A stretch of 37,421 nucleotides of DNA from Actinomycetes bacterium (lineage in GTDB: Bacteria; Actinomycetota; Actinomycetes; JACCUZ01): positions 1-37,421 of the forward strand of contig DATHAP010000032.1 of NCBI GenBank assembly GCA_035489715.1. Reading direction: 5' to 3'. A model generated the notes under the pieces. That model searched no databases. It was not told where the DNA came from and saw only the letters and a list, made by a program, of their open reading frames with translations. This document shows positions 27,402 to 34,178 of the stretch, in pieces. A program made the translations under genes and the position numbers. How positions within the stretch are numbered: position 1 is the stretch's first letter; every line of letters begins with the position of its first letter.

Positions 27402-28282
27402 TCAGGCGCCGGCGGGACCGCTCGGCGCGACGACCACGGCCAGCATCCCCGGGCCGACGTGGGCGCCGACCACGGCGCCCACCTCGCTGACCAGCAGGTC
27501 GCCGAGGCCGGGCAGCCGGCCACGCAGGCGCTCGGCGAGAGCAGCGGCGCGGTCCGGGTTGGCCAGGTGGTGCACCGCCGCGTCGACGGGGCCGTGGCCG
27601 GCGCGCTCGACGGCCAGCTCCTCGAGCCGGGCGATCGCCTTGGCCGACGTGCGGACCTTCTCCAGCGGCTCGATGTGACCGTCGACCAGGTGCAGCAGCG
27701 GTTTGACGGCGAAGGCCGAGCCGAGGAGGGCCGCGGCCGGGCCGATCCGGCCGCCGCGGCGGAGGTACTCGAGGGTGTCGACGTAGAACACCGCCGCCGA
27801 CGACTCGGCGCGCTCGCGGGCCACCTGGGCCACGTCGTCGAGGGTGCCGCCCACGGCCGCGGCGCGGGCGGCCGCGAGCACGGCGAAGCCGAGGCCCATG
27901 CCGAGCGACCGCGAGTCGACGACCTCCACCCGCAGCGGCGCCTCCTTGGCCGCGAGCTTGGCCGAGTCGACGGTGCCCGACATCTGCGACGACAGGTGCA
28001 CCGACACGACGCCGGCGGCCCCGGCAGCGGCCGCCCGGTCATAGGCGGCGGCGAACGCCGCCGGCCCCGGCCGGGAGGTCGTGACCGGCGTCCAGGACCG
28101 CAGCGCCTCGGTGACGCTGCGGGAGGACGTCTCGCCGCCCTCGTCGTGGGCCTGGCCGCCGATGACGACCTGCAGCGGCACCACCTCGATGCCGTGCTCC
28201 GCCACCAGCTGCATCGGGAGATAGCTCGTCGAGTCGGTGACGACCACGACCGGTCCAGTGCCCGGCGGCCGCGACGGCCGGC

Positions 28283-28286
<4 letters not shown>
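27402..28286 (-). CDS. DegV family fatty-acid-binding protein
   Basis: Protein of 294 residues. The DegV fold is shown by [12 protein letters not shown] at the N-terminus, [48 protein letters not shown] and [13 protein letters not shown], then [15 protein letters not shown] and [20 protein letters not shown]. Family members bind a long-chain fatty acid in a buried pocket, and some (FakB) present it to a FakA-type kinase; no kinase partner is seen here. The ATG overlaps the leuS stop (ATGA at 28283-28286), so it is translationally coupled to leuS and would share its attenuation control. Confidence 0.93.
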
Positions 28287-31207
<2,921 letters not shown>

Positions 31208-31245
31208 GTGGCTGCGCTCCTCGTGGGGACTCGGGTCCGGACACA

Positions 31246-31269
31246 GAAAAGCCCCTCGCAGGGAGGGGC
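31246..31269 (-). terminator. leuS leader attenuator terminator
   Basis: Intrinsic terminator on the minus strand: stem GCCCCTC/GAGGGGC (7 bp; arms 31263-31269 and 31251-31257), loop CCTGC, followed by TTTTCTG. It lies 39 nt before the leuS start codon, within the leader, and directly abuts the upstream hairpin. Confidence 0.85.
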
Positions 31270-31303
31270 AGCCGCACTGACGGGTCTCGATGTCAGCGCG
31301 GCT
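31270..31303 (-). promoter_or_regulatory. leuS leader hairpin over the leader-peptide stop
   Basis: RNA hairpin with 12 pairs including one G-U: arms 31292-31303 and 31270-31281, with a 10-nt loop. The leader-peptide stop codon (31293-31295) is in its 5' arm, so a ribosome finishing the peptide would melt it. The 3' arm ends where the terminator begins. Confidence 0.75.
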
Positions 31304-31328
31304 CGGTAAGGAGCAGTCCGGTACGCAC
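31293..31328 (-). CDS. leuS leader peptide (three consecutive leucine codons)
   Basis: Eleven-codon ORF read [11 protein letters not shown], starting at a GTG and ending with TGA. Codons 5-7 are CTG, CTC and CTT, three leucines in a row. CTT is uncommon in such a GC-rich genome, so translation should be sensitive to the charged tRNA-Leu pool. It begins 6 nt after a TATGGT box and has no Shine-Dalgarno, so it should be translated from the very 5' end of the leuS transcript. A hairpin covers its stop codon and an intrinsic terminator follows before leuS. This is the architecture of ribosome-mediated attenuation known for actinobacterial amino-acid genes. Expression of the peptide is inferred, not shown. 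Confidence 0.8.
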
Positions 31329-31334
31329 AGGACC

Positions 31335-31340
31335 ACCATA
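31335..31340 (-). promoter_or_regulatory. Predicted -10 box of the leuS operon
   Basis: TATGGT (TAnnnT) on the minus strand, 6 nt before the GTG of the leader peptide. The transcript would start at that GTG. No clear -35 hexamer is visible; the upstream terminator hairpin of the preceding gene occupies that place. Confidence 0.6.
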
Positions 31341-31397: not shown

Positions 31398-34178
31398 CTA
31401 CCAGCCGCTGGTGCTGGTACGCCAGATACCTCGGCCGTGGGTGCCGGCGTACAGATAGCCGTCCGGACCGAGGTGCAGGTCGTAGACCGTCGTCAGCGGA
31501 AGCGCGGCGGCCGACGAGCCGGGCGAAGCGCCCACGCGCTGCCAGGTCCCGCCGTTGAGCCCACTGACGATGACGCCGTAGTCGGTGCCCACGACGAGGG
31601 TGTTGCCGACGCGGAGGACGTCGGTCGCCGGCACGTTGGGCATGTTGCCGGAGATGTCGGTCCACGCCACCTTGAGCGTGCCGTCGGTGTTGGTCTGGGT
31701 GCTGACCACGCCCTTGAAGACGTGGGTCAGGCCGGCGCCCGGACCCTCGATGAACCGGCGGTTGTAGCCGTTGAACACCAGGTAGATCGTGTTACCGGTC
31801 GCGTTCGCCTTCTCGTCGATCCACACGGCGTTCGGGTAGCGGGTCGGCAGGCCCGTCATGTCCAGCTCGTGCCACGGTGCCTGAGACGTGCCGCCGTAGT
31901 TGGTCTTGACACCGCGGGTGAAGCCCGCGCTGTTGCAGTTGCTCTCGCCGCACCAGGCCGCGTAGACCACGTCCTTCGACGCGTCCTTCGGTGCCGCCGG
32001 GTTGGCGATCGCGTCGAGCCCGACGGTCATCCGGCCAGCGGTGCCCAGGTCAGCGATCTTGCGCCAACCGTGCGAGGCGTCCGCCTCGGCCTCGTCGGAG
32101 GTGTACGAGAAGGCCCGGTCGTGCGTCCACACCTTGTTCCCGCCGGCAACCCACCGCTCCGTGCTGCCGTTGCCGGTGTTCTGCGAACCGCGCACGATCC
32201 GGAACGGGGCCGTGAACCGCGGGTTGGGGTCGGGCACGCTGACGTCGAAGACCGCGCTGACATCGCCCTTGGTCTTGCCACAGGTCTTCGTCATCCACAG
32301 GTTGAGGTAGACGTATTCGTCAAGGATCTGGCAGCCGTCGTCAGCGTCGACGATGATGTCGCCGCCGTCACCGCCGAACGGCGAGACCATCTCGTTCGCA
32401 TCCGCCCGCAGCAGCGAGCCGCCGTTGTCCTGCAACCCACCTGCCACAAGGAACTTCCCGGCACCCGCCGTGGTGTCACGGCCGACGCCCACTGAGTAGT
32501 ACTGCAGGGTCCGCAGCCCGGGGCTGTGGTTCAGCCAGTCGGTGGCGTGCCCGGCCGCGTCCTCCTTGCTCGCCGAAGGCGGCGCCGGCCGCGACTTCAC
32601 GCCGCCGTCGTTGCCGACGTAGACGTAGCCGTCCCCGAAGGCGATCGAGTGCTGGTCGGAGTGTGTCGTCTCCGGGCAACCCCCGGTGGGGTCGGATATG
32701 TCCCAGCAGTTGAACCCGAAGTTCCAGTACGGCCCCGGTGTGGACCACCTGGTGCCGGCGTTGCGGCTCTCGTAGACCTCCTCCAGACCGAGGTAGACGT
32801 GCCGAGCGTCCGCGGGGTCCACCTCGATGAAGTTGTTGTACCAGGCCTGTACGCCTGGCCGGTAGAACACTCCACCGGACCCGCGCAATGCGGAACCCGA
32901 GGAGGCGAGCTTGCCGCTCGACGCGATACGGGTCCATGGACCGGCGAGCTTGCCGGTGTCCGAACGGAACACGCCGTTCAGCACCGTCTGCGGCGAGTGG
33001 TTCAGCTTGTTCGGGGACTCGACCACGGTGTAGAGGATCGAGCCGTCGGCGCTGAAGGCGAACTCGGCGTTGCCCACGTCCTGAGCCTGGAGGGCACCGG
33101 TCGGGTTGACTCGGGTGTAGGTCTTCGCGTTGCCGGTCGGGCTGTAGTAGAAGCCGTTGTACGCGGCGCCGCTGCGCCACGCCGCGTTGACCAGGATGTG
33201 TGTGGTGCCGGGCTCGATGGCCACGTCGTTGACGATGTTGTTGTACGGCTTGGTGATGTCGGAGTCGTCTTCCAGGTTGGGCATGAAGACGTTCTCCCAC
33301 TCACCCGACGCCGACAGCGGGTGTCGCCACAGCCCCCGGGTAGTGGCCGCGTAGATCTGCTTGCCCTCGGCATCGACCTTGAGCTGGTTGATCCCGCGGC
33401 TCTCCAGCTCGGTGCCGCCGACCCGGTCCGACTGGCTGAAGGTGCCCGTGCTCGCGTTGGCCAGCCGGTAGACACCCGCTCCGGTGTACGAGGTGGCCCC
33501 GGTGTTGGCCTCGCCGGTGGCGTACCAGAGCACGTCGGCGTCCGCGTCGTAGACGAGGTCACCCGTCGAGAGGGAGAGGATCTTGTCGGAGATCGGCGTC
33601 CATGCGCCGTCGTCCGATGTGGACTTCAAGTTGGCGCCCAGCGACTTCCGGAACACGCCGCCGTTGGCGCCTCCCGCGAAGAGGTAGCCGTTGCCGACTG
33701 CCAGGCCGGTGATCCGGCCGGCGACGAAGCCCGCTCCGCCGGAGGAGTTGGAGAAGCTCGGGTCGCGGTACTCGGGGTCGTCCGCGTCGTAGGGGACGTC
33801 GGTGATCTCGTCCCAGGTGGCCGACGTGCCGCTCAGGGACTTGAAGGCGGACAAGGAGGCGCTCAGGTTGCCGGCCGGCACCGAGCCGCGCGGCGCCAAC
33901 CTCGCATTGGCCACCGAGCTCAGGGCGTTGAAGATCTCCGCCGACTCCTCGTTCGGGTTACCGACGATCGACTCGACGCCGCCTTCCTCCTCGGCCTCCC
34001 GCTCGCGCTCCTCACGGGCCTCCTCGCCCTGACCGGTGCGCTCGAGGTACCCGATGTACGACGGCCCCGCCGAAGACGGTCCTCCGCCACCCGCCGTCGC
34101 CAGCACCACCACCGCAGCCGCCACGGCCGCTGCCGCGACCGATGCACTGCCCGTCTTCTGTCGACGCGTGAACGCCAT
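31398..34178 (-). CDS. Large secreted beta-propeller protein (BNR/sortilin-like repeats)
   Basis: Protein of 926 residues. A signal peptide or anchor ([20 protein letters not shown] to about residue 33) is followed by a charged stretch rich in Glu/Arg ([16 protein letters not shown], about 52-67), probably a short coiled coil. From about 120 the protein is built of propeller-like blades: [69 protein letters not shown], and the final [20 protein letters not shown]. Such sequences occur in sialidase/sortilin-type and two-component-sensor-like propellers. No catalytic residues of a glycosidase are evident. Cys pairs (CWD..GGCPE, CGESNC) suggest disulfides outside the cell. The ATG has AAGGG 7 nt upstream. 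The role may be adhesion or polymer binding; this is speculation. Confidence 0.8.

Follow-up and report, generated by a model that had tools for sequence, protein, structure and literature searches.

A predicted leucine-responsive attenuator with two abutting hairpins upstream of leuS-degV in Actinomycetes

Introduction

Leader-peptide attenuators upstream of leuS were predicted in 2005 in two Streptomyces species, S. coelicolor and S. avermitilis, by Seliverstov et al. (PMC1262725). The corresponding leader of S. lividans, leuL2 (MRAVRLLLSEPR), is transcribed as a leaderless mRNA according to 5'-end RNA-seq, and the S. lividans ilvL leader MRTRILVLGKRVG is likewise reported to be leaderless (PMC8079986). 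In M. tuberculosis ilvB1 the change of the LVVI codons to Ala resulted in low, inducer-independent expression (PMC13236596), and in S. coelicolor the swapping of regulatory codons upstream of ilvB was reportedly without effect, as cited in PMC1262725. The closest described arrangement is that of C. glutamicum ilvBNC, in which two adjacent hairpins overlap at GCC (PMC11857589). We found no direct proof of leucine-dependent read-through in the literature for any leuS element.

The subject of this work is the leader of leuS-degV in an actinobacterial contig of 37,421 nucleotides, which is referred to as the window. The first-pass annotation had read the leader as a leucine attenuator of leuS, an interpretation that is largely right in kind and that was already known in Streptomyces. 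The window and Streptomyces leuL2 have in common the target gene, a leader peptide that is leaderless in S. lividans and apparently so in the window, three Leu codons, the SEPR/TEPR context of the stop codon and the order of a hairpin (P1) followed by an intrinsic terminator (T). The window belongs to a different family of Actinomycetes, and its P1 loop is shorter. Moreover, the Streptomyces element was described as a classical attenuator that has an antiterminator. In the window P1 and T have no common base, and the same is true of the copies that carry the Streptomyces leader.

The other known systems compare as follows. M. tuberculosis ilvB1NC also has regulatory codons, a ribosome at the stop codon that masks the antiterminator and a Rho-independent terminator, but it senses Leu/Val/Ile for ilvB, it was tested experimentally, and its authors describe mutually exclusive hairpins. 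C. glutamicum ilvBNC has a near-leaderless leader peptide and adjacent antiterminator and terminator hairpins as in the window, but there the hairpins share the GCC overlap and a third, anti-antiterminator hairpin is present. The LEU element of leuA is similar in having a leader peptide with a Leu run in Actinobacteria, and differs in its proposed pseudoknot and Shine-Dalgarno (SD) pairing and in the lack of a terminator. In E. coli trp, thr and leu the position of the ribosome at the regulatory codons is decisive as well, but the antiterminator shares the 5' arm of T.

Results and Discussion

Anatomy of the leuS-degV leader

The features of the locus, numbered from the first letter of the window, are as follows.

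31335..31340, minus strand: -10 box TATGGT, promoter of leuL-leuS-degV (from sequence)
31293..31328, minus strand: leuL leader ORF with GTG start, 11 codons and stop TGA, apparently leaderless (from sequence)
31328-31293, minus strand: letters of the leuL ORF, GTG CGT ACC GGA CTG CTC CTT ACC GAG CCG CGC TGA
31308..31316, minus strand: regulatory Leu run CTG CTC CTT, the rare CTT being last, 8 nt before the conserved P1 core
31270..31303, minus strand: P1 hairpin of 12 bp with one G-U, arms 31303-31292 (5') and 31281-31270 (3'); probable antiterminating hairpin
31295-31293, minus strand: leuL stop TGA, inside the P1 5' arm
31269-31251, minus strand: intrinsic terminator T, 7 bp with a 5-nt loop, abutting P1 (spacer 0)
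31250-31247, minus strand: U-tract TTTT of T, directly after T
31217..31222, minus strand: Shine-Dalgarno GAGGAG of leuS (from sequence)
28283..31207, minus strand: leuS, 974 aa, long actinobacterial subtype, ATG at 31207 (TIGR00396, E 1e-262)
27402..28286, minus strand: degV-family gene, start at 28286 (TIGR00762, E 9e-76)

The leader is compact and begins 122 nt 5' of the leuS start on the minus strand. The GTG of leuL at 31328 lies 6 nt behind the TATGGT box, and the parts listed in the first-pass annotation, i.e. box, 6-nt gap, 11-codon GTG ORF, CTG-CTC-CTT, 12-bp hairpin containing the stop, and terminator with TTTT, are all present base for base. The proposed coupling of leuS and degV is also real, since the start of degV overlaps the stop of leuS as ATGA. 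A sequence search upstream of the leuL -10 box gave no match to a -35 box.

Some further details of the region can be mentioned here. The upstream gene ends at 31398, and the stretch from there to leuL contains a strong 12-bp hairpin without a U-tract (window 31378-31352), at the place where the -35 region of the leuL promoter would be expected. The leuS frame is open across the whole leader (31339-31208) from an ATG at 31339, which sits within the -10 box, 5' of the predicted transcript start; automatic annotation could in this way give LeuS about 44 false residues. The sequence right behind the U-tract (31250-31229) is conserved, with TTTTCATGTCCGG in many genera, and it can pair with leader codons 3-5, the preference for own over swapped partners being weak.

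Conservation and covariation of the element

The leader RNA is more stable than expected from its composition (folding z = -3.05; none of 200 shuffled sequences reaches its stability), and the leader region contains two terminator matches as opposed to 0.0 in the shuffles. Relatives were gathered by their LeuS proteins and leaders were then sought by ORF and Leu content alone. The same layout was found in 22 leaders obtained in this manner, including MRTGLLLTGPR, MRAVRLLLSEPR, MRGLLLLIGPR and MAGVFLLLTGPC. In an alignment of 19 relatives both helices are paired in 96% of the cells, and the value drops to 40-54% when the helices are slid. Covariation is seen in the two helices alike: seven pairs are changed on both sides, as compared to a shuffle mean of 2.8 (0 of 500 shuffles reach this number). 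The comparison of leuS upstream regions that the first-pass annotation had proposed as a check came out in its favour: the Leu run, P1, T and the spacing from the -10 box to the start are all kept in relatives.

A covariance model (R1) was built from mixed genera, the window included. With R1 the window scores 91.2 bits, and copies with the Streptomyces leader score about 94-102 bits. The next place in the window's own genome has only 16 bits (E 0.17) and falls within an ORF whose translation looks like that of a MarR-like regulator; the leuS element is accordingly single-copy in this genome. The window has no match to an Rfam model (T-box, riboswitch or other curated family) at the gathering scores.

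Leader codons and spacing

A short ORF with a run of Leu codons lies directly 5' of leuS, as in the leuL2-type attenuator. Its start codon is 6-7 nt behind a TAnnnT -10 box in all 75 Leu elements scored. In 70 of 74 elements the last Leu codon sits 8 nt ahead of P1; the first one is 11-17 nt from P1, and the stop is found at +7 in P1 or immediately before P1 in most Leu elements. The reading of the leader as a leucine attenuator, whose peptide is apparently made from a leaderless mRNA, is supported by the conservation of the Leu run, the start spacing, P1 and T.

It is conspicuous that CTT is the last Leu codon in 65 of 74 elements. Codon usage was taken from the window genes and the downstream leuS ORFs, and CTT makes up 1.2% of the Leu codons in 72 such leuS ORFs; kinship inflates the formal significance of this bias, which spans families. 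The preference for a rare last Leu codon and its fixed 8-nt distance to P1 are new.

Two abutting hairpins without a common base

The relation of P1 to T was analysed in 88 mutually related elements, the alignment of which followed a structural model. The two hairpins join without any spacer in 66 elements; the spacer does not exceed 1 nt in 81, and none of the 88 has more than 3 nt. In 84 of the 88 no nucleotide is able to pair in both P1 and T, in accordance with the earlier remark that no hairpin is seen to exclude T by direct overlap. We note that most of 13 other terminators in the loci also have an abutting hairpin; this comparison is uninformative as a null, and it was replaced by random positions, of which 1.1% coincide with the end of a hairpin of 9 bp or more. 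The abutment of two hairpins that share no base, together with the lack of an antiterminator in the folding test described below, is new with respect to the described systems.

The effect of the ribosome was modelled by equilibrium folding, which ignores kinetics, with a footprint of 26 nt, the value used for M. tuberculosis ilvB1 (PMC13236596). The predicted pairing of P1 is 0.92 with the ribosome at the first Leu codon, 0.59 at the second, 0.17 at the third and 0.05 at the stop, whereas T remains at 0.85-0.90 at every ribosome position. In other words, P1 depends on the position of the ribosome in the model. As P1 is the sole structure that follows the ribosome in the right direction, we consider it the antiterminating hairpin; and because it has no base in common with T, its action on T probably depends on abutment within RNA polymerase and not on pairing. 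Taken as a whole, it is very likely that leuS-degV is controlled by a leucine-responsive, ribosome-mediated transcription attenuator, in which P1 would antiterminate in this manner.

The switch can be envisaged as follows. Others have shown a leaderless transcript for S. lividans leuL2 and codon-dependent read-through for M. tuberculosis ilvB1. In the window transcription would start at or beside the leuL GTG and leuL would be translated as a leaderless mRNA. With ample Leu-tRNA the ribosome would reach the stop in the P1 5' arm, P1 would be blocked, and T would then fold and end transcription about 80 nt in. With scarce Leu-tRNA the ribosome would wait at the Leu run and P1 would fold behind RNA polymerase. 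Termination would need the foot of T to be pulled into the RNA exit channel, and a rigid helix of 10-12 bp joined to this foot by 0-1 nt would have no room there; T would be kept out and the polymerase would read through into leuS. We infer the direction of the leucine response, as well as the blocking of T by P1. In the trp operon the loss of translation leads to termination. The two-hairpin layout has no protecting hairpin, therefore lost leader translation should give the opposite, i.e. read-through.

The main doubt concerns the codon at which the ribosome stalls. If this is mainly the third codon, CTT, P1 is already melted under a footprint of 26 nt (0.17), and the reverse function of P1 would then be favoured. 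The reported lack of effect of the codon changes upstream of S. coelicolor ilvB also speaks against the switch as envisaged here. In the reverse scheme P1 promotes termination by stacking on T or by pausing the polymerase, a ribosome stalled at the third Leu codon melts P1 and weakens termination, and P1 re-forms after release. The rare CTT is placed exactly where a stalled ribosome melts P1. Moreover, the loop of T (window 31262-31258) carries the motif TG-Y-G in 49 of 76 Leu elements, the Y being mostly 12-13 nt downstream of the P1 base; this resembles a hairpin-stabilised pause site and it would fit a pause. On the other hand, T has its own U-tract and is predicted to form equally well without P1, P1 survives a stall at the first Leu codon, which lies further upstream, and the loop motif is not conserved in the cimA elements (see below). 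On balance a role of P1 in promoting termination seems unlikely.

A classical attenuator, in which P1 would be a true antiterminator with sequence in common with T, would be in line with the antiterminator and terminator hairpins described for leuS by Seliverstov et al. (PMC1262725) and with the C. glutamicum ilvBNC hairpins, whose adjacency and three-base overlap have mutational support (PMC11857589). Against this stands the fact that P1 and T do not compete for a single nucleotide in nearly all elements, so that the textbook explanation of switching does not fit. The same conclusion comes from a co-transcriptional folding test in which the ribosome was placed on the first regulatory codon and the sequestering of the T 5' arm was read out. 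The arm is sequestered to 0.89 in E. coli thr, 0.61-0.66 in trp and, more weakly, 0.45 in leu, whereas the value is 0.03 in the window and exceeds 0.5 in 0 of 86 elements. The pairing that defines a classical attenuator is consequently not found, and within this model a pairing-based antiterminator is absent. Every other testable attenuator trait is present, such as target-matched leader codons and an intrinsic terminator before the structural gene. We regard a classical attenuator as distinctly improbable here. The textbook model has a gap here, in that base pairing does not make the switching hairpin and the terminator exclude each other, and such non-overlapping hairpins would bear on how terminators fold inside RNA polymerase.

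Two further pairings were considered as candidates and rejected. The Leu run can pair with the T 3' arm (TCCTT:GAGGG) in 62% of the sequences, but as a general antiterminator this helix was discarded since it is absent in the Streptomyces-type and Ile elements and is masked by the ribosome. The leader start can also pair over a long distance with TCCGG behind T, but this sequence is transcribed too late for an effect on T, and the own-over-swapped signal of the pairing is weak (6% and 0.7% of the swaps are as good).

Proposed pairing of the Leu run with the leuS ribosome site

The first-pass annotation had also suggested a second, translational layer, given that CTCCTT of the Leu run is complementary to the GAGGAG of leuS. 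The window RNA can indeed close such a helix, and a comparable switch was proposed at leuA (PMC1262725). However, a species' own Leu run and SD pair no better than partners swapped between species (-9.46 versus -9.43 kcal/mol, 45% of the swaps being as good), and the match is missing in Streptomyces (CTTCTGCTT) and in the Ile leaders (ATTATC). The base stem of the leuA LEU type, formed by the Leu run and the SD, is thus not apparent by own-over-swapped preference. This part of the earlier interpretation did not hold up, and a translational switch for leuS is in our opinion very improbable.

Distribution and target genes

At E 0.01, R1 matches were found in 153 of 297 Actinomycetes genomes and in 72 of 114 genera, the weakest of which may be chance. 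A chance ORF before a constitutive terminator, conceivable because GC-rich DNA commonly holds short ORFs, is refuted by this spread, and the conservation, the covariation, the rare-codon bias and the match of codons to target gene leave it a negligible probability. The Streptomyces prediction is hereby extended to more than 70 actinobacterial genera. Outside Actinomycetes R1 matches are rare (five genomes): two have Leu leaders ahead of LeuS-like ORFs, and the other three have a Val/Leu/Ile run.

Among the 74 elements with a LeuS-matching downstream ORF, 39 precede the long LeuS subtype and 35 the short one, which is about 40% identical to the former. That the attenuator is kept before two such divergent subtypes is new, and it indicates that the element goes with function rather than with one protein.

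R1 also detected elements before cimA (citramalate synthase), ilvB and one leuC, and a second covariance model was built from the cimA set. It matches 111 of 198 genomes, although part of these matches are again the leuS elements. Among the elements detected is the one before cimA in the window's own genome (G000:C135:2138-2248, minus strand, L240) with the leader MASTCITT. Further cimA attenuators are found at L190, L191, L192, L194, L199-L201, L203, L241-L246, L249-L253 and L255-L257. The cimA leaders mostly contain Ile runs (MPSQVIIIVRRAG, VAQALIIG), and the ilvB leaders have Ile/Val/Leu codons (VQNLLVLIGRAG, MRTRILVLGKRVG), the S. lividans ilvL peptide MRTRILVLGKRVG being found letter for letter before an ilvB at L254. 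We found no published report of a cimA attenuator in the open-access literature searched. Codon identity follows the target gene, which argues strongly for the codons being the sensor. One attenuator design is re-used with different codons for leuS, cimA and ilvB. These sister elements before cimA and ilvB are likewise new.

The abutting two-hairpin layout recurs in the cimA and ilvB elements, for instance at L197 (ilvB, leader MHSILVVIEHVA). It is tempting to speculate, albeit with less than even confidence, that the leaderless branched-chain attenuators of Actinomycetota (leuS, cimA, ilvB) form a two-hairpin class in which the non-overlapping hairpin acts only by its direct joining to the foot of T, with RNA polymerase as the exclusion device.

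Finally, a few individual genomes deserve attention. At L202 (2001-2113) leuC is preceded by MRTVLLLLSGRDETSF, possibly a Leu leader, with P1 present and a poor terminator. Genome G209 has two leuS genes, one of each subtype, each with its own attenuator (L145, L146). Within one family the attenuator stands before the short LeuS in some genera and the long one in others (L117 and L147 versus L141, i.e. genomes G001 and G005 versus G000), as though a conserved switch had kept its place while the gene following it was displaced.
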